A model generated the notes under the pieces. The model worked only from the letters and a program-made list of their open reading frames with translations. It made no database searches and was not told where the DNA came from. 41,638 bases of DNA, taken from the NCBI GenBank assembly GCA_030054035.1, contig JASGCS010000010.1:1-41638 (forward strand), in the 5' to 3' direction. This DNA comes from Candidatus Methylacidiphilales bacterium (lineage in GTDB: Bacteria > Pseudomonadota > Gammaproteobacteria > JASGCS01). Each line of letters opens with the position of its first letter. The stretch's first letter is position 1. Shown one piece after another: positions 1 through 37,004 of the stretch. The position numbers and the translations under genes are program-made.

Positions 1-3000
1 CAAATCAACCAGCAGGATTTATAGAATTTTCAGGTAAAACCATAAATCTACAAGCCCAGCCCTTCACCCTCAACTCCCAAGATACCCTACTCCTAGATCC
101 TGACTATATAATAATTAGAGAAGGAGCCCAACCACCTACCTGTCCTCCTGTTGCAAATCAATGCGGATTTGATTCTCCCGTATCAAATCAAACTATTACT
201 GCCACCACCGATACTGATCCTTTTAATGATGGGCTAGGAACAACATATATCTACGAAGATACTCTAGAGGCAGTTACAACAGGAACTATTTCACTTTCTG
301 CAGTTAAGGGTATTTTTACTTCAAGTCCGTCAACTAACTTTGAAATTACCCTTGCCAGTGGTGTAAACATATCTTTAACTACTACCTGTACTAGTAGTTC
401 CTGCACTGATTCTTTATCTGATTTTATACAATTAAATTCGGGAGGTTTTACAACACAAGGTAATGGAACTATCACCATTAATTCAGGTAGTAGACTAGAA
501 ATTAATAACGATATAACATCAGAATCTGGAGATATCTCCATTACAGCTGCTACGAATATCACTACTTCTGGAACTCCAACCATTACAACAACCAGCGGTG
601 ATATTTCAATAACAGCAACAGGTGGCTCAATCGGCGCATCAGGTAATCCTGTTGAGGTTTCCAGAACATCAGGGTGGTCATCTTCAAACCTCATTCTCAG
701 TTCTTTTGAATCTGGAAACATCTACCTCAGATCAGCAAATACTGGTCTAACTGACGCTACCATAAATACATTCTCTAGTGGCACATTATCTTTAGAGCAA
801 ACCTCTGGATCATTTGCTATATCTAGCGCTCTAACTTTTTCCAATGCTACTCTTGAACTAATTTCATCAAATGACATTGCACTTGCTGCAAGTATCACCG
901 CTACATCTGTTACTCTCAATGCTGGTACTTCAATCACACGAAGTGCAGGAGCGATAACCTCAGGTACTTCAGGCACCATCTCTCTCACCGCCACTACAGG
1001 TGATATCGGCACCTCATCTAACCCAATCTCCATTACCCAAAACGCCACCACTGGTGATCTAACCGCGACTGCATCTTCAGGTGATATTTATATTAGTGGC
1101 ACTGCATCATTGTTGCTTGGCAATATTTCTACATTAGGTTCTACTTCAAGTGCAATTGATATTACTGCTGCAACTAATCTTGCTAGAACTAGTGCAACTA
1201 ATATTACTTCAGGAACTTCAGGAACAATATCTCTTACCGCAACTACAGGTTCTATCGGTACCTCAGCTAATCGAATTAACATTACCCAGCAATCAACCAC
1301 TGGTGATTTAACCGCAACTGCTTTATCGGGCAATATTTATCTTAATGGTTCTGCATCATTGCAACTTGGTAATATTTCTACATTAGGTTCTACTTCAAGA
1401 GCGATTGATATTACTGCTACAAATCTTTCTAGAACTAGTGCAACTAATATTACTTCAGGAATTTCAGGAACAATATCTCTTACCGCAACTGCAGGATCTA
1501 TAGGCACCTCTATTAGCCCTATTAACATTGTTCAAAACGCAACCACTGGTGATTTTTCTTCTACAGGTAGTAATGTATTTGTTAGTTCAACTAGCAGCAA
1601 TCTTCAAGTTGGTGCTGTGACCGGGACGACTGAAGTTTCATTGATTGCCACTGCGTTGATTGCGGCTGCCTCTCACACTGGAATTTCGGCTTCAACTTAC
1701 AGTCTTACTGCTACAAGTGGTAATATAGGCACGACAACTAATAGAATTGCAATACTAACAAATCCTACTGCTTTTACTGCAAGTGCACCAGCTGCTACTG
1801 CTGTGGCACATTATAAAGCGGGTGGTTCTGCTGCTAGAACTACGATTCTAAATGGCTCTACAGTTAGGAGCGGTGCCAACAGTGTCAGTGGTGTCATTGG
1901 TGCAGCAGGAAGCCCAAACATTCTTAGCGCTTCAATTGCGAGTATTGAAGTGAGTACAGGCACTAGAACATGTACTGCTAACTGTACATTTACAATCAAT
2001 GCTGCGGGTGAGATTTCTAATACTGAAGGTTATACCATTAATGCTAAAACAATTAGTATTTCTTCCACTGCAAATATTGGCACAATGCTCCATCCTATAA
2101 TTGTATCTACTTGTGAAACTGCAGCAAATGCAGCAAATATTACATGTACTGATAATAGTACATTTACGAGTATTTCTATCACTGCAGCTAATGGTGGTGA
2201 TATTTATATAAAAAGAGCAAATGATGAAGTATTAGGAATATTTAGTGCGGGCACGGTTTCTTTTGTGGGGACAGGTGTGGGGCCAGGATTATCTATTTAC
2301 CTGATCCAAGATAATGCAGTTGCTACTATTACACAATCTATTTCGGCATCTTTAAGCGCCGCTAGGGCCAGCATCACCAACTTTTATTTGAGCGCCCCTT
2401 CGATTGTCTATAATGCCGATTTGATTTTTACTACCAAGATAACATTAAAAGCAACTGACGGTTCAATAACTACTAATGGCACAGCGTTTTTATCAGCACC
2501 TTCAATTGAGTTAATCACAACAAGGTCAGCTTCTTCTACTAACGCAGACATAGGTAGTGCATCGTCTCCGATCAGAATTTCATCAGCTTCAGCTTTTACT
2601 GATCCGCAAACTGCCTTTACTGGATTTGTAGCTAATACCAATGGCAGTGGCTCAATTTATTTAAGCAGAAATACTCTGGCAGCCGATTTAATCGGGTCAG
2701 TGTTTCCACCACCAAATCCAAATCCAATTGTTCCACCAGCAAATCCAAATCCAATTGAGGCAGATGGATTTTTATCACTGTATCAAAATAGTTCGGTATT
2801 TACCTATAATAAACCAGGTTCAGCGATTGAAGAAAGATTGATTATTATTGCACCAGGAGGTATTAATTTAACTTCAACTGGAAACATTGGAAGAGCAGCG
2901 TTTCCTATTAGACTTTCGGTTGGCACTAGTTACGCGACAAGTCTTTGTAATTTTACTGGAGGTAGCTGTCCATTAATCACATTAAGCTCCGCAGGTTCTG

Positions 3001-6000
3001 TGTTTATTGAAACCAATGGCAACGCTACTAATTTATTAACTCACACTATTCAAACATCAGTTTCTGGATCTATGCTAAGTATTTACCAAACTACTGGCGA
3101 TATGCAAATTTTAGGCACGGTTACTTTAGGTAATTTTTCTAATTTTAATTCCTATGTGCTTGCTAGCAGGACGGGAGGTATAGTTGTATCCGGTTTGGCT
3201 TCTCAGATCAATTTAACTTCCTTAGTTACTCAACTTACTTTAGCTGGTAAGACCGGTATTGGTACTTCTGCATTGGGTTTGCCGATTAATACTGGAGCTA
3301 CTACTAATATAAACTTTGGTTTATCGGGCATAGAGCAAGATTCTAATATTAATGTTGAGTATCTCGGCACAAATACTTTTAATATTGGTACTATTGTGAA
3401 AACTGCTGTGATTTCAAGATATGCCTTCATAGTTAAAGGGAGTGCATTGGTGAGTTTTAATCTAGCGGCTTCCGTACCTTCCACCCTCGACTTTATTGAT
3501 TGGTATCTTGATCTGACCAATGGCAGCACTTCAAGAGTGGATACTGTCTCTTCGCTAGGTGGTAATAGCATAACATTCTCATTCTTTGGCAGTAATTACA
3601 TCACTAGAATTGGCCCAAATACATTCACCACTAAACTTGGATCTGGCAAACTATTACAGCTAATAGATAACAACAGTATTATCTCTGGAAGTTCTATTTT
3701 TGACTTAACCGCGTTCAGCCCAACATCTCCAATTAAAGTTTGCGATGCTGGCTCGGTGTGTAGATTGGGAACTGCAACTGTTGCTGAAAGCAATAGCATT
3801 AGACTTGCATATAATTTTCCAAATGCAGGTGGTAATTTGAATTATTCAAACATTTCACTTGATATTAATAGCTCAGGCTCACCAGGTGATACATTAATTA
3901 TTGACGCTTTAAATTCACATATTATTCCAAGTAGTAGTTCAACAACTATATCAGCTGGAAAAATTTACCTCAATGCTCGGTTAATTGGAACTGAAGCATT
4001 CCCTGTGTTATTTGCAAGTACTTCAATTTTACCTAGTGCTGGCCAGATCGCAAATGCTTATTTTAAATCTCAAGGTGCTATCTACATAGGAGCTAATAGT
4101 CTTAGCGGGTTGTTCTGTGCTAGATGTGTTGATATATATTTTAATACTGCAAATTATAACACTGCAATACTGAGCATCACGCAAGTATCTGGAGCTATTA
4201 GTAATACTGGTGGTTTTAGTGTAGGTTTTGAAAACAAAGATTATTCGTTTGATGCAATCGCAACTACCATTAATTGTGGTGCCTGTAACAGCGGCAATCA
4301 ATTCATGTTCACTTCTACAAACATTGGTGCGTTAGTTATTATTGAAGCTAAAAATGGCTCAATCACACAGTCTTCAACTGCAACTGATGCGTTTACTTAT
4401 AACAGTAGACTGCGTTTGAAATCTTCAGGAAATATTGGTACCAGTACCTCTTCAGTAAATATCAGTCCAAATATTGTGGCTGGTTCTGTGCCTCCGATAA
4501 GTTTGGAAGCTGGAACGAGTAGCTGTACCGCATCCTGTGGTGAAATTTATATTACAAATACAAATAGCTTTGCGCTTGATTATGCCAGAGTAATCTCGAG
4601 CACTGCTAAGGTTTCTGCTAATCTAATAAAACTAGTTTCTACTTCAGCAAATGGAATAGTGCTGTATGGAAATTCTTCTTCAACTGTTTTAATACCTGTA
4701 AATAATGGTTTATCTTATGAAAGTGATGGCCTGTATCATGTCGCAGAGTGGACCATAACTGCACCAAAGGTATACGCAACCTCAATCAGTTCTGGGTATA
4801 TTAGCGCTTCTAAAATCACATTAAATTCTGGGTTAATTGGTTTAGTAAATGCTCCCTCGACCTCACCATCTGGCGATTTTACAGTGTCAGCAGACTTCCC
4901 CCTCACTTCCGCATTAAAGATATCGATCATCCCTACTACTATCACTAATGCCTTACCAGAAACTTCATATTGTGCTAGTTGCTTGGTAATTAATTCTGGA
5001 GCAGGAACGGTAACTAATGGGTATGTAAATATCTTTTTTGATGCAAGCAGAGAAAATTATAGAGTTGAGTGCGGTAGTGGTACTGTGCTTTGCCCAAGAG
5101 AAGTTGTCTTTTTTGACCGAGTCACTGCTAATCGAACATTTGTAAACTATTCTTTAATCAATGCTCTTACTTCTAAAAAACTTGATGTATCTAGTTTTTC
5201 ACCTACCACTGATAATTTTATAAAGTTAGTCAGCGCTTCTGGAACTTTTTATATACCTAATGTAATTACCTTATCTGGCGGAGCAACTACTACTGGCATT
5301 TCAATAACTGCTTTTGGAAACGGAAATAATGAAGGTGTATTTTGTCTAACTGCCGCTACCTGTAGTATCACTGCGCATAGAGTATTTGTCCGTTCTAATA
5401 GTGATATCGGTACGCAGACTGATCCTCTTACCGTCAATGCCACAAGAACAAGTTTTATTGCACGCGGAGGAGTTTATTTGCAAGGCAATGATTTATTTGC
5501 TCTCTACTCACTTCATAGTGGAGTTATCCCTGCTTCTGTTCAATTTATATCTGGTGCAATTGATAGTAGTAATTTTACTTACAGCTTAGATAACGATGTG
5601 TTAGGGATTGGTGCGTTACACACTCTATATTTAAAAGCAACCCCATCAACTGGCCTTGTAACATTTACCACAACTAAAACCTTACAAATCGATCAGGATC
5701 CTAATATTGGTACAGGTAGTAATGTTGCGTTGACCATTGAAGTTGTCGGTGACATTGTTCAAAATACTGGAACTGGCGCGACGAAATCTATTTTTAGTGC
5801 AGTATCTAATGTTAAAAGTTTGGCGATTAGAACTTCAGGAAGTACGGGAACAGGACATATTGGCAAACCAACAGGATCTGGTGCCGGTGAGAACCCAATT
5901 TATTTTTCCATAGACAGTGGTGGTAGCTTGGTGATAGAAACTAGGTCTAATGGTAATGCGTATGTGAATAGTTTGACTTCTTCTGTTTTTAAACGGATTA

Positions 6001-9000
6001 AAGCGACTATTCTTGAATACAGTGCTAGAGATGCAGCTAATTTTCTTTTACAAATAAGAGCTGATGCTACCTATGATAGTACTAATAATCTGAACGCAAT
6101 TGAAGCCGATGAAATTACCTTAAATGCTAATACTATAGGCACTGCAGATCGACCAGTTACATTAATCGCTACTAGTGTTGGTGGAACTATTAAACTCGGA
6201 ATAAATCCAAATTCCAGCGCTCCTGGAAATAGTATTTATATTGACAGCAAAAATTCGTTATCGATAACCACGATCTACGCAAGATTAGTAGTAAATGTTT
6301 TACCAATTTCAACTTCTTTAGATTTTTTACAAGATTCAGCGGCTACTTCACTAGGTATATTCACTACTGATTTAATACTAAATCGAAATAATTCCAAATG
6401 GCGTTCAGTGGGAACTTCTGCGAATCCTTTAAAGCTATCAGAGATAATCAGTGATACCAGCGTCTCTGTGGAGTTGTTTGCACAACCAGTTTGTAATCCA
6501 CCTATCAATACTTGTGCTAGCTACCTTGGTGGTGATGTTTTTTTAATCTTCGCTTCAGACGCTACAATTAAAACAATAACATCTTTAACGCTATCACTTC
6601 GTTCAAGTAACAGTACAGATACTATTTCAATTCTCAGTATTGTAAATCTTGAGTCATCTGCTGCTGTTAGATCTAGATATTTAAAATTAGATGGCCTTAA
6701 TGATTTTAATCTTGGAAGTTCAGCATTACCGTTTACCTTAGATGTTCCAGGATCTGATTTTCTTATCCCTGCCTCCTACTCAAATCCTGTATGTACTGTC
6801 ACTATTGGGTTATGTATTCAACCTGAAAAAATCAAAGATATATTTTCAACTATTTCTACCAACCTTCAGTTATCAAATGTTAGTAATTACACCATTAGAC
6901 AATTTAATGTCACCGTATCTCCGATTGGGCTTTCTCGAGATTCGCCTGATCCAGCTTTTAATTTTAATGGCAAATATTTAGTAGTCACTAGTAATTTTTA
7001 TGCGGCTATTAATTCTACAAAACCTATATCTTCAGATGGAAGCGTTTCAATTGTTGCAAATGTTATTGGGTTATTTTCCTTAAGTACTATTGGTTCAAGT
7101 GCAAATCCTATTAGCATCGCACCGTATGTTGCTGTGGCTACAACAAATACCTCCCCTGTTACCATCGATTTGAGTGTGCGAAGTGCTAGAAATACCTATA
7201 TTAAAATTTCTTCTAGAAATACTTATAACGAAAACGCTGCAGTAAATTCAACCTTACCAAGCGCTGTCCATCTCCGCTTAATTGATACAGTAGCGCAAGC
7301 GAGTGTTGATTTTAATGAAACTATTTTCCAATTACTTAATATAAATACCGTAGGTAGCAACGGCGAGTTGCAAATCGCAACACCAATAGTATTTAGCTCA
7401 ACGCTGCAATTTATTTCAGATAGCAACATTGTTTCTGTTCGTGATCCGGTAACTTCAAGTTATGGTGTTATTTTTAATTCAACAGATAGTGCCTATGTTT
7501 CAATAGTTTCTAATTTTGGTAGCATTGGTAGATCAGTCAATGATCGATTATGTTTTGGTGATAATTCAAATTATCAACTGCTCATTTCTAATGAGGGATG
7601 CTCATTTAACCCTAATGGCTTGCTTGAGCATAATCTACAACTTGAATTATCAGCTATACAAGGAAGTATATTTATTAATGGTATAGGCCTTCGTGTCATT
7701 CTGCCTTCAACTAAAAAATGGGAAGCAAAATTTGAATTAGATGTTGTTATTACTAGTGTTCTTCCGCTTGTTCAATTACAATCTGGTTCCACGATCATTG
7801 CCAACTCGGTCACTCTTCAAACCCAGACTATTGTTTCTGTTATAAATAGTCCAGCTTGTCTGACTTTCGGTAGCTGCATCGGTGGTATCAGTGGAAGTGC
7901 TTCTGCTAAAATTCAAGCAAATAATATAAATCTTTTTGCTACCGGAGGTTCAAGTCAATTCACCACTTTTAATGGAAAATCAACTTTATTACCAATTCTA
8001 GAATTTAGTATTGGTTCAAGTCCACTTCCAATTATTCTAGTAAATTATTTAGATGACCAAGCCCCGATTTCCTTATCGTTAGTAGGTTATTCCGTTTATG
8101 TAACTTCTTCTAAACCGTTATTATTACAATCTATAATTCGCAACAATAATCAGAGTATCTGGTCTGCAGTTACCAATTATTTGAGCGCGTACAATGTTTC
8201 TATCAATTCCATTCTAGCTTCTGTTACAGGTACTGGCATCTTCCAATCATCACTTGGCTCGCAATCTAATACCATAGTAGCCAATACAGTTATGTTACAA
8301 AGTGTCTCTTTGACCGGCACGACGATAAGTAATTATTACAATATAGGTAACTATCAATTGATTTCAGGATCACTAGTGCCGCAACGATTTATTTCACTTC
8401 GTCCTTCCATCAATTTTATAGATTTTGCCACTGTCGTATCAAGCAATTCAAATATTTCATTTTCTGCTAAAGGTAATAACATTGCCCTTGAGTCATATAG
8501 TAATCTGGTGTTGATTGTTGGTGAAAAATCCATATACGCAGAGCAAAGATTTGATTTACGCTTGTTTGATGGGACTAATGAAAGCTCTCTCATTACCAAT
8601 GAAAGCACACTTTTAGATGCAAGGTTGGTATCAATAGAGGCGCAGAATGGCTCAATTGGATCTATAAATAACCCTTTGTTTATTAGTAATCTAGATAAGT
8701 CATTGTTGTTAGCAGTAAAAGCTGGCAATGCTTATATAACCAGCAATTCTACAGTGACTTTGTATCCATTACTTTCGGCCCCTGCTAGCGCTTTTATAAT
8801 TCGAAAAGAAACCTCGTTATTAAATTTAATAACGCTAATTGTTCCTGGTGAATTACAATTAACTCTAACTGACTCAATCAATACTTCTTATTCTGTCTTA
8901 AATCCTAATCGTATTGGTATTGCTGCTGGTTCAGTTTCAATTAATGTGAGTGGTAATCTAGGAAGTCTTGCTTTCCCGATTTCTATTTACGCTGTGGCGT

Positions 9001-12000
9001 CTCCTGGGTTACTTAATTTAGAACAGTGTTATTTAAATTGTGATACCGTTAAACTTTCTTTAGTTGGATTTCAAGGATTTATTAATACCTACGCTACCAA
9101 AACTGAATTGTTTAGCAATCAAATATCTTCTACACCGATTAGATTTAAGGATTGGTTTGTAATTCGTGGTTTAAATTATGATTCGCTTTTGTTACCAGCT
9201 ACTAGTAACGCTAGTGGTCTTACCGATATACAAGCCGGTAGATTAACTATACAATTTCCAAATGGCGATATTGGTGATTTTACTCAACTTATTTCAGGGC
9301 TTCCTAAAGCCTTACGAGTTGGCTTGCCCGATGGCACACAAAGACTCGGTTTAACTATTGAAAACCTTACCTTAGAGTTACCTGACGGATCTTCGTCACA
9401 CTCAGAAGGTCTTAGGGGTAGAAATATATCAATCACAAGTTCGTCTGAACTTTATTTAGAAAGTTCAGCAATTTATACATCTTCAAAACTTGTTCTGAAA
9501 ACTTATTCTGAAAGTGTACAAAGTGTTTCTGTAAAAAGAAATCCAAGCGCTCAAATTGGTTCAACTGTTACTATTTATTCCAATGCTATCGCGTTATCAA
9601 TTACCGGTAATTTTGGTGAACGCGAGTTTGTAAATGGCTATGAGGATACTTCTAGATTTATAGAATTGCGTAGTGCAACTAGTGATTCATTTTTACTTTC
9701 AGGACATGCCAATTCTTTGTTTGTAAATGCTTACTCAACAATTTATTTAACCCAAAATGAATCTATTATAGGTACTAGTATATCTGCGTTAGCGCAAACC
9801 ATTGTCAGTTCAGTACTCTCTTATTCTGGTGTGGTTAGATTAAACTTTTTAGAAAATGCCAGTATGTTTAATTACCAAAGTAATACTATATACTCAATGA
9901 AACTTGCACAATTAATAATTACTGGAACTGAGTCAATTGGAAGCGCTGAATCACCAATTGCTTTTTCAATTCCAGGTACCGATACTTTGATTAAACTAAA
10001 AGTTTCAATTCTGTCTGGGTCAATAGCCATTCAATCTGGTTCCCCAGTTGAGATTTTCCCCTTTTCTTTAACCCAAGTACATCCATCGCTTTCATCATCT
10101 AATTTTGGATTAGCGATTGCCAAAACTGAGAGCGGCAATCGAAACGGTTTGATTTATCTAGAAACGAAAGGTAATGGTAGTAATGTCGACGGATTTGGAG
10201 ATATTATTGCTGGAGAATTTAAAAACCAAAACACAGGGGTTGCTGGCACAATAATTATAAAAACTGAGGGTGCGATTTTATTACAAGGTCTATTAATTGC
10301 AAACGCAATAGAATTATTTAGTGCAAGAGCGATTGCAAATATAAATATTTCAGAGACTTTAAGTAATTTAGATATATATGCTTCAAACTATATTCCACGA
10401 GATATTGGTAGTTCAACCTTACCTATTTCATTATTAGCTTCTTATAATAGCTCTGCACCAATATCGTTAAGAGCGGCAGGTGCAAATATTTATTTATATT
10501 CAAATTCTCCTGTCTTTTTGCCTGTTGCTCGCACTAATGAATTAGCAACATTGAGAATTCTCCCTACCGCTTATAACGGTGGTAATAGCACTCTAAATAA
10601 AGCATATATCCATGGTATCATTCAGTTTCGCTCTAGCCTTATTGGTAATTCTGTTTCAATTTCTGGACCTGGTTCAGTATTAGCAGGCTATTTACCTCTT
10701 GTTACCACGAGTGATGGTTTTACTATTCCTGTGTATGATCCAACGACAAGTACTCATATTGCGTTACATTGGGCAACTCCCAATAGTAATTATGACGCAC
10801 AAACAGGGCTGATTAGGGTTTTTGGAATTAACACCTATATTCCAAGTGCAGGTACTATTTCATTTTCAATAAATGGATCGATATTAATTTCTGGCACATT
10901 AACAGCAAGCAATATTTCATTACATTCTATCTCTGGTACGGTTGGCCAATCAAATACTATTACTATTGCTGGAAATCAATTAGCAGTTAGTAATATTATT
11001 GCTAATTATGAAGCTAACCCACTGTTAGTGACTAATGCTAATCCTTTTAGTTTTATTAACAATGCAGTAAAAGTAGTAAGACCTGGTGTGTCAAGCAGTA
11101 CATTAACTCAAGCCTTATATGTACATGGTTCATCGGTGTATTTACAAAGTATCAATAGCTCTTTATTAATAAATTCTGTTGAATTAGATGAGCAAGGTGT
11201 TTTAGAAATTACTGCAGGTTCCGCAGCAACACTTGCTAGTGGTTTTAATTACTATGTGAGTGGTACTGGTAACTATCTCGCACATGTTATTTCAATTTTA
11301 TCAAGTGGTTCAATTGGAAATGTAAGCAGAACCGATAATAATTTTTCATTAACCGCAAAATCTGTTACTAAAATTAATAGCGATGGTTTGAGTCAGGTTA
11401 TACATGGTTCAATATTACTTCATTCATTATTTGGAAATATAGGCTTTTCTTCTAACCCACTTTCTTTATCTTCTACTTCAGGAAGTTTCAATCTATCTGC
11501 ATGGTCGAGAAATTATAGTAGACTTTCAAGTGGTGGTTCTGTTTATATTAATGCCAATAAATCAATTGCTTTAATTATTCCAAAGAGCGTTTTAATTGCT
11601 GATCAGAGTGTGGAATATAATTTTTATTTAACGGATCCAGTTACTGGTGTGGTAACTTCAGTCCCTTCATTGTATGCAGATTTTGCCATTAATGTAACTA
11701 CCTTATTTGGTTATGATATTATTGGTTATTTTGATTCAACCGCATCAATTAGACCTTGGCAGTCAGCCTTTGCTCAAAATACAATACAGATTAGCGCTGG
11801 GGGTAATCTCTTTTCCACCGGTGAGTTTGTCTCTTCTAATATTGCGTTATACAGTAATTTATCAATAGGAAAAGAAAGTGTTTTGGCTGGAAGGTTAGTG
11901 ATAGATCAAAACGGTTTACCTAATACCACATTGCCATTCAGTTCGGCAGTTAAAGTATCTCCCATATACTTGTTTGGCACAAGCGAAAAATTATTTTTCC

Positions 12001-13328
12001 AATCATTAACAGTATCAAGTGGAACTGAAATTGGTAATATTTATCTTTCCGCAAAATCTGATCTCTACCTAAATCAAATTATTCAGTACAATCAAAATGG
12101 TACTGTTGAATTGTACGCTATAGGAACTTATATGTATAACAATGCTGGTACCCAATATGTCTATGGCGCGAATATCCTAAATCGTAAACCTCAAGATTAT
12201 TCTAGCTTTGATCCAACTGCTAGTCTTGCTAAGAGAAATTACGACTACGGGGTAAAATTCTTTGAAGTCAAAAAATTTTATGCCTACGCCAGTGGAGATA
12301 TTGGAGCTCAATTAGTCCAATCAAATTCCACCAACCAAACTATCTATGGAGTATCAAATACTTATAAATTTTATGAGCCCCTAAGAGTTAAGACACATTT
12401 AGTTTCATCTTCTAATAAATCTTTAACTCTTGTCTCTTCTAATAATATTTTTATAGATTTACTCCCTGCTACTTCATCTAATTATTTAGAGAATTTTAAT
12501 CAAATATTTAATTTTGCTGATATTGATTCAATCTCTTTAAACTCTAACCCAGCATCCCATCTATTAAGCATTAGACAGACTATCGGTGCCTTAGTTATAG
12601 ATAAGAAAATATTATTCAACGGTGGTTCAGTTTCTCTCCATGTGCCATTTGGATCTATCGTTGGTTCAGGATCCATTAGTACGATTGGCTTATTAGCCGG
12701 ACAACCTGCTAAAACTGGTGTTCTTTTAGAAGCTCGTGATTCTGTTCAACTCTATAACGAATCCGCACCTCTTGAAGCTTACTTTCTAATTATAAAAACT
12801 GAAGCTCCTTCAATCCAAGGTGACCTTAGAGTTGTTTTCTCACCTACCGTAGCTACAGCAAATACTACGTATCACGACACCTCACTTTTTGAAAATGAAA
12901 TTAGTATTACTAATCTTTCATTATGCTTTGTCAGTATTACTAACTGTGTGTTTAATAATCAAACAGTTCTTCCTAGATTTGTTTTTAGTACCGATGATAA
13001 GACCACACAGGTTGCATTCATAAAATTATTAAAACCAATATCTGTTTATTATCAATTAACCAACAAAAAACTAACTGATAGATTTTATTCATATAGTTCT
13101 TATCAAGATCCATTGTTAGCTGTTCTAGCTACATCTTCATTACTATCGGTAAGAAATTTAGGACCAGTACGATTATCTCCTTTACAATTTCAACAAATAT
13201 ACAATCCATTCCAAGACACAGAGCTAATTCCAAGTGAAGTTGTTGGTTTATGTAAAGCAGATATCGCGAATCGGTACGACTATATTAGTGAAAATTATGT
13301 AACCATTGGTTGCATAGAGTCTGAATAA
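1..13328 (+). CDS. Giant two-partner-secretion (TpsA, FHA/HMW1-like) adhesin, 5'-partial
   Basis: The frame is open without a stop from base 3 to the TAA at 13326-13328, giving at least 4441 residues; the N-terminus lies left of the window. The TTG at 1110 is an internal leucine codon, because coding sequence with the same repeats continues upstream of it. The first residues (AGFIEFSGK, then LLLDPDYIII) resemble the stretch just after the TPS domain of HMW1/FHA-type exoproteins (GGxVExSG followed by LLDPxxI). The remainder is rich in Ser, Thr, Asn, Ile and Gly and repeats a turn of the form GxIGxxxxPIxI about twenty times, as expected of a beta-helix rod. All 38 cysteines occur in close pairs. 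There is no C-terminal beta-barrel ending in an aromatic residue, so it is not a classical autotransporter. The inferred role is a surface or secreted adhesin exported by a TpsB pore that is not in this window. Confidence 0.85.
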   Translation, partial: NQPAGFIEFSGKTINLQAQPFTLNSQDTLLLDPDYIIIREGAQPPTCPPVANQCGFDSPVSNQTITATTDTDPFNDGLGTTYIYEDTLEAVTTGTISLSAVKGIFTSSPSTNFEITLASGVNISLTTTCTSSSCTDSLSDFIQLNSGGFTTQGNGTITINSGSRLEINNDITSESGDISITAATNITTSGTPTITTTSGDISITATGGSIGASGNPVEVSRTSGWSSSNLILSSFESGNIYLRSANTGLTDATINTFSSGTLSLEQTSGSFAISSALTFSNATLELISSNDIALAASITATSVTLNAGTSITRSAGAITSGTSGTISLTATTGDIGTSSNPISITQNATTGDLTATASSGDIYISGTASLLLGNISTLGSTSSAIDITAATNLARTSATNITSGTSGTISLTATTGSIGTSANRINITQQSTTGDLTATALSGNIYLNGSASLQLGNISTLGSTSRAIDITATNLSRTSATNITSGISGTISLTATAGSIGTSISPINIVQNATTGDFSSTGSNVFVSSTSSNLQVGAVTGTTEVSLIATALIAAASHTGISASTYSLTATSGNIGTTTNRIAILTNPTAFTASAPAATAVAHYKAGGSAARTTILNGSTVRSGANSVSGVIGAAGSPNILSASIASIEVSTGTRTCTANCTFTINAAGEISNTEGYTINAKTISISSTANIGTMLHPIIVSTCETAANAANITCTDNSTFTSISITAANGGDIYIKRANDEVLGIFSAGTVSFVGTGVGPGLSIYLIQDNAVATITQSISASLSAARASITNFYLSAPSIVYNADLIFTTKITLKATDGSITTNGTAFLSAPSIELITTRSASSTNADIGSASSPIRISSASAFTDPQTAFTGFVANTNGSGSIYLSRNTLAADLIGSVFPPPNPNPIVPPANPNPIEADGFLSLYQNSSVFTYNKPGSAIEERLIIIAPGGINLTSTGNIGRAAFPIRLSVGTSYATSLCNFTGGSCPLITLSSAGSVFIETNGNATNLLTHTIQTSVSGSMLSIYQTTGDMQILGTVTLGNFSNFNSYVLASRTGGIVVSGLASQINLTSLVTQLTLAGKTGIGTSALGLPINTGATTNINFGLSGIEQDSNINVEYLGTNTFNIGTIVKTAVISRYAFIVKGSALVSFNLAASVPSTLDFIDWYLDLTNGSTSRVDTVSSLGGNSITFSFFGSNYITRIGPNTFTTKLGSGKLLQLIDNNSIISGSSIFDLTAFSPTSPIKVCDAGSVCRLGTATVAESNSIRLAYNFPNAGGNLNYSNISLDINSSGSPGDTLIIDALNSHIIPSSSSTTISAGKIYLNARLIGTEAFPVLFASTSILPSAGQIANAYFKSQGAIYIGANSLSGLFCARCVDIYFNTANYNTAILSITQVSGAISNTGGFSVGFENKDYSFDAIATTINCGACNSGNQFMFTSTNIGALVIIEAKNGSITQSSTATDAFTYNSRLRLKSSGNIGTSTSSVNISPNIVAGSVPPISLEAGTSSCTASCGEIYITNTNSFALDYARVISSTAKVSANLIKLVSTSANGIVLYGNSSSTVLIPVNNGLSYESDGLYHVAEWTITAPKVYATSISSGYISASKITLNSGLIGLVNAPSTSPSGDFTVSADFPLTSALKISIIPTTITNALPETSYCASCLVINSGAGTVTNGYVNIFFDASRENYRVECGSGTVLCPREVVFFDRVTANRTFVNYSLINALTSKKLDVSSFSPTTDNFIKLVSASGTFYIPNVITLSGGATTTGISITAFGNGNNEGVFCLTAATCSITAHRVFVRSNSDIGTQTDPLTVNATRTSFIARGGVYLQGNDLFALYSLHSGVIPASVQFISGAIDSSNFTYSLDNDVLGIGALHTLYLKATPSTGLVTFTTTKTLQIDQDPNIGTGSNVALTIEVVGDIVQNTGTGATKSIFSAVSNVKSLAIRTSGSTGTGHIGKPTGSGAGENPIYFSIDSGGSLVIETRSNGNAYVNSLTSSVFKRIKATILEYSARDAANFLLQIRADATYDSTNNLNAIEADEITLNANTIGTADRPVTLIATSVGGTIKLGINPNSSAPGNSIYIDSKNSLSITTIYARLVVNVLPISTSLDFLQDSAATSLGIFTTDLILNRNNSKWRSVGTSANPLKLSEIISDTSVSVELFAQPVCNPPINTCASYLGGDVFLIFASDATIKTITSLTLSLRSSNSTDTISILSIVNLESSAAVRSRYLKLDGLNDFNLGSSALPFTLDVPGSDFLIPASYSNPVCTVTIGLCIQPEKIKDIFSTISTNLQLSNVSNYTIRQFNVTVSPIGLSRDSPDPAFNFNGKYLVVTSNFYAAINSTKPISSDGSVSIVANVIGLFSLSTIGSSANPISIAPYVAVATTNTSPVTIDLSVRSARNTYIKISSRNTYNENAAVNSTLPSAVHLRLIDTVAQASVDFNETIFQLLNINTVGSNGELQIATPIVFSSTLQFISDSNIVSVRDPVTSSYGVIFNSTDSAYVSIVSNFGSIGRSVNDRLCFGDNSNYQLLISNEGCSFNPNGLLEHNLQLELSAIQGSIFINGIGLRVILPSTKKWEAKFELDVVITSVLPLVQLQSGSTIIANSVTLQTQTIVSVINSPACLTFGSCIGGISGSASAKIQANNINLFATGGSSQFTTFNGKSTLLPILEFSIGSSPLPIILVNYLDDQAPISLSLVGYSVYVTSSKPLLLQSIIRNNNQSIWSAVTNYLSAYNVSINSILASVTGTGIFQSSLGSQSNTIVANTVMLQSVSLTGTTISNYYNIGNYQLISGSLVPQRFISLRPSINFIDFATVVSSNSNISFSAKGNNIALESYSNLVLIVGEKSIYAEQRFDLRLFDGTNESSLITNESTLLDARLVSIEAQNGSIGSINNPLFISNLDKSLLLAVKAGNAYITSNSTVTLYPLLSAPASAFIIRKETSLLNLITLIVPGELQLTLTDSINTSYSVLNPNRIGIAAGSVSINVSGNLGSLAFPISIYAVASPGLLNLEQCYLNCDTVKLSLVGFQGFINTYATKTELFSNQISSTPIRFKDWFVIRGLNYDSLLLPATSNASGLTDIQAGRLTIQFPNGDIGDFTQLISGLPKALRVGLPDGTQRLGLTIENLTLELPDGSSSHSEGLRGRNISITSSSELYLESSAIYTSSKLVLKTYSESVQSVSVKRNPSAQIGSTVTIYSNAIALSITGNFGEREFVNGYEDTSRFIELRSATSDSFLLSGHANSLFVNAYSTIYLTQNESIIGTSISALAQTIVSSVLSYSGVVRLNFLENASMFNYQSNTIYSMKLAQLIITGTESIGSAESPIAFSIPGTDTLIKLKVSILSGSIAIQSGSPVEIFPFSLTQVHPSLSSSNFGLAIAKTESGNRNGLIYLETKGNGSNVDGFGDIIAGEFKNQNTGVAGTIIIKTEGAILLQGLLIANAIELFSARAIANINISETLSNLDIYASNYIPRDIGSSTLPISLLASYNSSAPISLRAAGANIYLYSNSPVFLPVARTNELATLRILPTAYNGGNSTLNKAYIHGIIQFRSSLIGNSVSISGPGSVLAGYLPLVTTSDGFTIPVYDPTTSTHIALHWATPNSNYDAQTGLIRVFGINTYIPSAGTISFSINGSILISGTLTASNISLHSISGTVGQSNTITIAGNQLAVSNIIANYEANPLLVTNANPFSFINNAVKVVRPGVSSSTLTQALYVHGSSVYLQSINSSLLINSVELDEQGVLEITAGSAATLASGFNYYVSGTGNYLAHVISILSSGSIGNVSRTDNNFSLTAKSVTKINSDGLSQVIHGSILLHSLFGNIGFSSNPLSLSSTSGSFNLSAWSRNYSRLSSGGSVYINANKSIALIIPKSVLIADQSVEYNFYLTDPVTGVVTSVPSLYADFAINVTTLFGYDIIGYFDSTASIRPWQSAFAQNTIQISAGGNLFSTGEFVSSNIALYSNLSIGKESVLAGRLVIDQNGLPNTTLPFSSAVKVSPIYLFGTSEKLFFQSLTVSSGTEIGNIYLSAKSDLYLNQIIQYNQNGTVELYAIGTYMYNNAGTQYVYGANILNRKPQDYSSFDPTASLAKRNYDYGVKFFEVKKFYAYASGDIGAQLVQSNSTNQTIYGVSNTYKFYEPLRVKTHLVSSSNKSLTLVSSNNIFIDLLPATSSNYLENFNQIFNFADIDSISLNSNPASHLLSIRQTIGALVIDKKILFNGGSVSLHVPFGSIVGSGSISTIGLLAGQPAKTGVLLEARDSVQLYNESAPLEAYFLIIKTEAPSIQGDLRVVFSPTVATANTTYHDTSLFENEISITNLSLCFVSITNCVFNNQTVLPRFVFSTDDKTTQVAFIKLLKPISVYYQLTNKKLTDRFYSYSSYQDPLLAVLATSSLLSVRNLGPVRLSPLQFQQIYNPFQDTELIPSEVVGLCKADIANRYDYISENYVTIGCIESE
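870..1613 (+). repeat. Three tandem ~83-residue (249-bp) adhesin repeats
   Basis: Copies begin near 870, at 1119 and at 1368. Copies 2 and 3 both start with GNISTLGSTS and share long identical DNA stretches. Copies 1 and 2 share SGTSGTISLTATTG and TTGDLTATA at the protein level, but copy 1 uses different synonymous codons. A more diverged copy may precede 870, and the third copy decays after about 1560. All copies are in frame, so gain or loss of a unit would not shift the reading frame. Confidence 0.8.
2706..2759 (+). repeat. Proline-rich 9-residue x2 repeat in adhesin
   Basis: Two 27-base units at 2706-2732 and 2733-2759 encode PPPNPNPIV and PPANPNPIE. They interrupt the Ser/Thr-rich beta-helix-like sequence and look like a rigid hinge or linker between two rod segments. 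The unit boundaries are read directly from the sequence; the linker role is inference. Confidence 0.7.
13251..13313 (+). other. C-terminal cysteine loop of the adhesin (possible anchor)
   Basis: The last two cysteines (codons at 13251 and 13311) enclose 19 residues and are followed by only IESE before the stop. In HMW1 of Haemophilus influenzae a cysteine pair close to the C-terminus forms a disulfide loop that keeps the adhesin tethered to its TpsB pore. The placement here is similar, though the loop is longer and the sequence differs. The anchoring role is therefore inferred from position. Confidence 0.4.
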
Positions 13329-35424: not shown

Positions 35425-35500
35425 TGGTGCCCTCGGCAGGAGTTGAACCTGCGACCTATCACTTAGGAGGCGATCGCTCTATCCACTGAGCTACGAGGGC
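35425..35500 (-). tRNA. tRNA-Arg (anticodon CCU), CCA encoded
   Basis: The minus strand folds into a full cloverleaf. The acceptor arms are GCCCTCG and CGAGGGC, the D stem GCTC/GAGC, the anticodon stem ATCGC/GTGAT with one G-T pair, and the loop CTCCTAA with anticodon CCT. The T arm is GCAGG TTCAACT CCTGC. A discriminator A and genomically encoded CCA complete 76 bases. It reads AGG codons. The first 38 bases overlap the end of the kinase gene on the same strand. Confidence 0.97.
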
Positions 35501-37004
35501 CTGTTGAGGCAATTAAGCATTTTATGATTTTTTTGATGGGTGTGTTGGAAGTTATCGTGGTGGTTATGGCAACCTCCTCACTTGAAAGGTTATCCTGTAG
35601 ATATTGTTGTGATTTTCTGATAGTGTAAGTTGCTTCAGAGTGGCCTGACTGATCTCGTTTTGATTTTCTTCGTGCAAGCCTTGTGCGTGCGAGAGTCTCA
35701 GTCGATGTAACCGAAAGTATAGCAATGGGGATATGGTTGCTATTAGCAAATTTGATGAACAGGGCTCTATGGTTTTGCTTTAAGAATGTTGCATCAATGA
35801 TCACAGAGTATTTGGTCGCAAGACAAGCAGTAGCGTTTTTTAATAAGGTACGATAGACTTGATTAGTTGCCAGGGGGGTGTACCTGTCAATTTTTTTAGG
35901 ATATAACATTAATCTCACTTGATCGGATTGTAATAGGACTAATGGCTCGTTTAGGTTTTGCAGTAAAGCTCTTGCGATGGTAGTTTTTCCGTTTCCAGAC
36001 TGTCCATGCATAAGAATAATGCGAGGGGAGTGTGCCCCAAGTATTTGTTTAGTGTAAGTTAAGTATTGTTTTGTTTCGTGATAGGCACAGTCTATGGCTG
36101 AAATTTTTGCACGAACTAAAGCCCGATAAATACAATAGAGCTTAAAGAGTGGTAAGTATTGATACTCTTGGGTAATAGCAAAATAATGTGAGATAAGTGT
36201 GCGTGCCAGTGCCGGTTGCCTCCTTTCCAGATCCATGAGTAGAAAAGCAATTTCATTAATTCGGTCAAGATACATAAACTTCTTATTAAACTCAATGCCA
36301 TCAAATGCAAATATGGTTTTTCCGCTTAGGGCTATATTGCCTAAATGTAAATCTCCATGACCGAGATGATACTGCTGATGCTTTTTTCTTTGAGTGATAA
36401 GGGGGATACATTGCTTGCTTAGTGTAATGATTTGTTTTAATTGTTGCGTTACTTCACGGTGCAATGTGGGTTTACGGTTAAGCCATTGTAATAATTGCTT
36501 ATTGTTTTCCTGCACCATGCTGGTTATTTGTTTTGCAGTTCCGAGGGGACTGGTTTTAACAAGTTTTTTTGTTTGTGAAAATTTTTTTAGATGTTGTGTT
36601 ATAAAGGTAGTGAGCAGTTCTTGCTGGGTTCTTGATGTGATTGGTAGTAACTTATCCAAAGTATTTTTATGATTAAATCGTTTCATCACCACGATGTAAT
36701 TCACACAATCGTAGCCGGATAATTTTTTTAAACTTACGTTCAGGGTGCTGGGATGTTGATATAAGGGTAGGACGCCAAGATATAAAAATGCTGTAAATCT
36801 TTTATTGAGGCTTTGCTCTAATGCACAGTATTTTTTACGCAAGCTGAGTGTTTCATAGTTGAGAAATCCAAAGTTAACTGCTTTTTTTATTTTGTATGCT
36901 TTAGCAGTAGTTAAGATGATTGTTGAAACATGAGTTTCAAGTACGGTTTTTGCTTTAAGGTGCTTGGATAACGCTTTAATTATTTGAGAGTGGTTGTAAT
37001 GCAT
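35463..37004 (-). CDS. Bifunctional aminoglycoside phosphotransferase-like / P-loop kinase
   Basis: The 513-residue protein joins two kinase folds. The N-terminal APH-like domain has the catalytic loop HGDLHLGNI (216-224) and metal-binding FDGIEFN (234-240). The C-terminal AAA/zeta-toxin-like kinase domain has P-loop GQSGNGKTT (334-342), IIDATFLKQNHR and TRLARRKS. This architecture is widespread in bacteria with unknown substrate; drug resistance is not implied. The last 12 codons and the stop lie inside the tRNA-Arg gene, giving the tail GPRSSVDRAIAS. A TAAAAT box ends eight bases before the ATG, with ATGACT 17 bases further upstream, so the transcript may be leaderless. It is divergent from the helicase gene. 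Confidence 0.85.
   Translation of the reverse strand: MHYNHSQIIKALSKHLKAKTVLETHVSTIILTTAKAYKIKKAVNFGFLNYETLSLRKKYCALEQSLNKRFTAFLYLGVLPLYQHPSTLNVSLKKLSGYDCVNYIVVMKRFNHKNTLDKLLPITSRTQQELLTTFITQHLKKFSQTKKLVKTSPLGTAKQITSMVQENNKQLLQWLNRKPTLHREVTQQLKQIITLSKQCIPLITQRKKHQQYHLGHGDLHLGNIALSGKTIFAFDGIEFNKKFMYLDRINEIAFLLMDLERRQPALARTLISHYFAITQEYQYLPLFKLYCIYRALVRAKISAIDCAYHETKQYLTYTKQILGAHSPRIILMHGQSGNGKTTIARALLQNLNEPLVLLQSDQVRLMLYPKKIDRYTPLATNQVYRTLLKNATACLATKYSVIIDATFLKQNHRALFIKFANSNHIPIAILSVTSTETLARTRLARRKSKRDQSGHSEATYTIRKSQQYLQDNLSSEEVAITTTITSNTPIKKIIKCLIASTGPRSSVDRAIAS

Follow-up and report, generated by a model that had tools for sequence, protein, structure and literature searches.

Close cysteine pairs in the predicted C-terminal part of a giant TpsA protein and in its cysteine-dense paralogue family

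Results

The giant frame and its genomic context

The window analysed here is a stretch of 41,638 nucleotides on contig C10 of a 1.72 Mb, apparently gammaproteobacterial genome assembled in 16 contigs. Translation of the window showed that it opens with a frame of 4441 codons on the + strand (3-13328), which is open throughout and ends in a single stop. The contig begins within this frame, which is thus 5'-truncated, and all cysteine counts given for it are valid for the part present. A FAD/Fe-S oxidoreductase gene begins 7 bases after the stop, and a scan of genome contigs with this gene found only distant relatives (best 48%). It is followed by housekeeping genes. Positions 35463-37004, likewise beside housekeeping genes, encode a protein whose kinase domain is AAA_33 / Zeta-toxin-like.

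The fragment itself gave no match to a Pfam family, and the genome carries 13 matches to the TPS domain PF05860 with scores of 51-85 bits. The first 395 bases of the frame showed an 80% DNA match to a stretch of contig C4, the nearest paralogue, whose PF05860 domain lies directly upstream of the homologous start and is similar to the EtpA, HxuA and HMW1 structures. Since the start of the frame matches the stretch behind this domain, the frame very likely represents, on sequence grounds, the C-terminal portion of a TpsA protein whose own TPS domain lies beyond the contig edge. The assignment to the TPS exoproteins made in a preliminary description of this DNA was therefore borne out through the paralogues and not through a domain of the fragment.

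A short segment of the frame (positions 56-117) recurs almost unchanged at the ends of contigs C1 and C3, and such near-identical segments behind TPS domains probably broke the assembly. Contigs C1, C3, C5, C6, C8, C10, C14 and C16 end inside TPS genes, and for this reason the number and full length of the TPS giants of this genome are uncertain. A search with the window protein across 75 genomes, of which 74 were other members of its class, revealed no homologue outside its own genome, and comparisons were consequently made with the paralogues.

Cysteine pairs in the window protein

The frame, the shared segment and the cysteine pairs are as follows.

3..13328, + strand: tpsA-type giant exoprotein gene, 5'-truncated; nt 1-395 with 80% DNA match to C4
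56..117, + strand: near-identical segment QPFTLNSQDTLLLDPDYI, common to the contig ends C1 and C3 and to C4
141..164, + strand: Cys 47/54 (CPPVANQC); slot also in C4, C16b, C3 and C1b, spacer length variable
387..404, + strand: Cys 129/134 (CTSSSC); slot also in C4, C1b, C3 and C8; C16b without both Cys
1971..1985, + strand: Cys 657/661 (CTANC)
2112..2147, + strand: Cys 704/715, loop of 10
2946..2969, + strand: Cys 982/989 (CNFTGGSC)
3741..3761, + strand: Cys 1247/1253 (CDAGSVC)
4116..4127, + strand: Cys 1372/1375 (CARC)
4275..4286, + strand: Cys 1425/1428 (CGAC)
4524..4538, + strand: Cys 1508/1512 (CTASC)
4971..4982, + strand: Cys 1657/1660 (CASC)
5070..5093, + strand: Cys 1690/1697 (CGSGTVLC)
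5343..5363, + strand: Cys 1781/1787 (CLTAATC)
6492..6515, + strand: Cys 2164/2171 (CNPPINTC)
6792..6815, + strand: Cys 2264/2271 (CTVTIGLC)
7551..7601, + strand: Cys 2517/2533, loop of 15
7857..7877, + strand: Cys 2619/2625 (CLTFGSC)
9027..9041, + strand: Cys 3009/3013 (CYLNC)
12924..12947, + strand: Cys 4308/4315 (CFVSITNC)
13251..13313, + strand: Cys 4417/4437, loop of 19, 4 residues before the end; candidate HMW-type C-terminal anchor disulfide

Recounting confirmed that the 38 cysteines of the truncated frame form 19 close pairs with no single cysteine, and the intervening lengths reported previously agreed with ours: 16 of the 19 loops measure 2-6 residues and the remaining three 10, 15 and 19. 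Short and long gaps alternate from one cysteine to the next (6, 74, 4, 522, 3, 42, 10, 266, 6, 257, 5, 118, 2, 49, 2, 79, 3, 144, 2, 29, 6, 83, 5, 376, 6, 92, 6, 245, 15, 85, 5, 383, 3, 1294, 6, 101, 19). When 38 cysteines were placed at random, none of 20,000 placements produced 19 consecutive pairs and the best produced 10, and the 19 clean pairs observed compare with 4.2 expected. Pairing beyond chance was not seen for His, Trp, Lys, Glu or Tyr of the same 4441-residue protein. The proposal of a cysteine-free segment beside a cysteine-rich shaft stands in part: there is indeed no cysteine between residues 3013 and 4308, but with 19 pairs a gap of this kind departs only weakly from expectation (p about 0.03).

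Paralogues and control TPS proteins

Together, the 19 paralogue pieces from this genome span 39,794 residues and contain 384 cysteines, a density of 9.65 per 1000 residues compared with 8.6 in the window protein, and 374 of the 384 have a cysteine neighbour within 20 residues. Pairing was far above chance in the window protein and in every larger paralogue. Single cysteines, which if common in homologues would have spoken against the pairing, were reduced to one truly single residue outside signal peptides among the 19 pieces (residue 441 of C2b); another at the cut end of C16b only seemed single, since the full frame supplies a partner 11 residues later.

As controls served 78 TPS proteins of other Pseudomonadota, comprising 58 frames from genomes of the same class and 20 from genomes elsewhere in the phylum. 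The 58 same-class frames hold 189 cysteines in 213,171 residues, 175 of them paired against 14 expected, with a median density of 0.75 and a maximum of 4.85 per 1000 residues, and the 20 others hold 32 cysteines, 26 of them paired, with a maximum density of 4.69. One control (L241) has no cysteine outside its first 60 residues. The controls together contain 221 cysteines, about 91% of them paired, at ~0.8 per 1000 residues compared with 9.65 in the family, in keeping with the earlier statement that TPS adhesins are cysteine-poor; the control set is skewed to high-scoring TPS domains and is an imperfect match to a genome whose own domains score 51-85 bits.

Close cysteine pairing is thus a TPS-wide rule, and the anomaly of this genome is the density, about tenfold. 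TPS exoproteins in general share the pairs and differ by their densities (median 0.5-0.75, maximum 4.85, versus 8.6 for the window protein and 9.65 for the family). The rule is already known in words from a review, which described type V secretion cysteines as few and only few residues apart (PMC8151025), and the special part is the density across a whole paralogous family. The same review lists the chlamydial Pmp autotransporters as type V passengers with unusually many cysteines, up to 18; these are classical autotransporters, not TPS proteins, and are likened here by description.

Several further giants were encountered. Contig C7 (locus L118:1351-16248) encodes a TPS paralogue of 4966 residues with a long FG-GAP array and 82 cysteines in all. 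Contig C3 (loci L130 and L208) carries one of ~8,200 residues whose 5' end is missing, with paired cysteines and a C-terminal pair, directly upstream of a gene resembling fructose-bisphosphate aldolase. On contig C15 (L126:5488-7398) a TPS paralogue is preceded by a frame of 637 residues which is outer-membrane-protein-like and without a Pfam match. Another genome of the class, 1.9 Mb in size, encodes a TPS-domain frame of 29,206 residues (G052:C1:290030 onward, loci L140-L144) that contains no cysteine at all, and a second frame there, of 9,947 residues, likewise lacks cysteine.

Joint gain and loss of cysteine loops

Family-wide all-against-all BLASTP at 20-25% identity gave a meaningless register, and the comparison of slots was limited to flanks of at least 45% identity. 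At this level a cysteine loop was either inserted whole or missing altogether, in beta-helix-type repeats as well as FG-GAP units, as in GDLTATASNTCASPPCSGINNIYL versus GDLSASAA----------AGNIYL and GNAYLYKLDGNEGFTSTCATTGNLISAWCTLS versus GNTYLYNLSS---------------GTWTDLS. In the first slot (47/54) both cysteines are kept with a spacer of 2-7 residues (CPPVANQC, CPDAANQC, CPTTQC, CQNC), and in the second (129/134) both are lost together in C16b. The few single-cysteine counts in slots mostly reflect gap placement where the spacer length differs.

Piece C7a carries a long FG-GAP_2 array (PF14312, E=1e-147) like that of FG-GAP repeat proteins, from which it differs by a C-x(9-15)-C loop inserted in most units; in the same genome the loop is missing from nearly all C2a units and all C7b units. 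The number of cysteines per FG-GAP unit was 0, 2 and once 4, never 1. Gain and loss of both cysteines of a pair together, proposed earlier as a check, was accordingly found in both repeat types, and it is consistent with what local disulfides predict. Within the loops, A, P, S, T and G are over-represented and I, L, K and H are scarce. The earlier idea of small disulfide-closed loops is therefore partly upheld: pairing together with joint gain and loss is consistent with loops at repeat turns, and the bonds are a prediction from sequence.

AF2 models built without homologues for window residues 1230-1800 and 290-760 reached pLDDT values of 37.1 and 40.7 and were unusable; a strand-rich pattern with pLDDT of 50-60 was confined to the repeat region.

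The C-terminal pair

All 12 complete C-termini of the family end in a cysteine pair with a loop of 8-19 residues, 0-4 residues from the end, and in most of them a hydrophobic stretch lies upstream of the pair. The HMW subfamily is defined by a C-terminal disulfide (PMC4873976), and the residues before it have been modelled as a helix that sits inside the barrel (PMC4873976, PMC5422565). Judged from its position, Cys 4417/4437 is most likely an HMW-type C-terminal anchor rather than an adhesive loop. Anchoring is less sure for the window protein than for its paralogues because it has the family's most divergent C-terminus, with a loop of 19 and no clear hydrophobic stretch before the pair.

The family shares the C-terminal pair with HMW1 and HxuA, whose structures the C4 TPS domain resembles. 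HxuA has two cysteines close to the C-terminus (PMC4873976), whereas the proteins described here are much longer and carry tens of further internal pairs; unlike the HMW subfamily, the window gene has no tpsB directly downstream. The FHA subfamily lacks a C-terminal disulfide anchor and is in this respect unlike the window protein with its terminal pair. A CdiA effector was considered and rejected, as the VENN motif was found in 0 of 19 pieces and the window fragment is without a Pfam domain.

Internal loops in FG-GAP units reach 13-15 residues and a few internal loops 20-23, as long as or longer than the terminal loops. Since internal loops match anchor loops in size, loop size alone does not separate passing from stopping, and it cannot be the stop signal unless the internal bonds form after passage.

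Discussion

Export and proposed function of the paired cysteines

TPS proteins are thought to avoid cysteine, as disulfides would jam export. The genome encodes DsbA with a CPHC motif, DsbB, and a full TpsB protein (C12:39480; ShlB, POTRA_2 and POTRA_3) which is not beside the examined TpsA genes. We consider it probable, from the sequence features described above, that the frame represents the C-terminal ~4400 residues of a cysteine-dense HMW-type TpsA in which local disulfides staple a secreted rod. The chain would be exported by Sec, encounter DsbA/DsbB in the periplasm, and be threaded largely unfolded through the TpsB pore to fold outside into a repeat rod. Cysteines would be tolerated only as sequence neighbours, each pair being able to close a loop, mostly of 2-15 residues, so that distant parts are not misbridged and no large knot arises in transit; small loops should not block translocation according to one proposal on this question (PMC8151025). 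The loops, whole insertions at repeat turns of beta-helix type in the window protein and of FG-GAP type in paralogues, would protect surface turns from unfolding and proteolysis by stapling them, and the last pair, few residues from the C-terminus, would be the likely periplasmic anchor keeping the rod on the cell. Disulfide formation, its time and place, stabilisation and anchoring are all inferred here.

A variant of this explanation, which differs as to when and where oxidation occurs, holds that the chain passes in reduced form and acquires its internal disulfides only once outside the cell, and that closeness results from vectorial folding at the surface. It would accommodate internal loops that equal or exceed the terminal ones, and a globular fusion containing a disulfide was reported to block FHA secretion (PMC3297439), but DsbA and DsbB are present and the terminal anchor requires a bond in the periplasm; we regard this variant as possible but rather unlikely. 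It appears improbable that pairing is a mere side effect of DsbA, by which all exported proteins keep their cysteines close and the family is just large. The same pairing in 78 unrelated TPS proteins, and close pairs in some other exported proteins of the examined loci, agree with it, yet neither the tenfold density nor the amplification of cysteine loops in tandem FG-GAP units would be explained. Metal-binding or redox centres (the metal knobs of the preliminary description, or thiol-disulfide exchange) in place of structural loops are very improbable, since, although three window pairs have the CxxC spacing common in such sites (CARC, CGAC, CASC), spacing is free within one slot (CQNC, CPTTQC, CPPVANQC), loops of 3-15 predominate, the loops are depleted of His (family ratio 0.23, with no His in the loops of the window protein), and successive pairs lie mostly 30-500 residues apart, so that four ligands would rarely meet.

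Returning to local staples on a secreted rod, this lineage may, as a tentative generalisation that we hold at somewhat less than even weight, use disulfide loops as bulk building material for TPS-secreted rods, in two types of repeat and with internal loops that match the supposed stop loop in size. If true, either oxidation follows passage or something other than the loop itself gives the stop signal. Molecules with tens of probable closed loops and a terminal stop-like loop raise the question of which disulfides the TpsB pore passes. The simple sequence rule that TPS cysteines occur as close pairs was examined in 78 unrelated proteins.

A second, divergent ShlB/POTRA_2 protein of 668 residues without cysteine is encoded on contig C11 (L204:2644-6796). 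Its gene lies in a row with those for a 368-residue protein without an assigned family and for two ExbD-like proteins, an arrangement suggestive of an Omp85/TpsB-type pore that works with a proton-driven motor.
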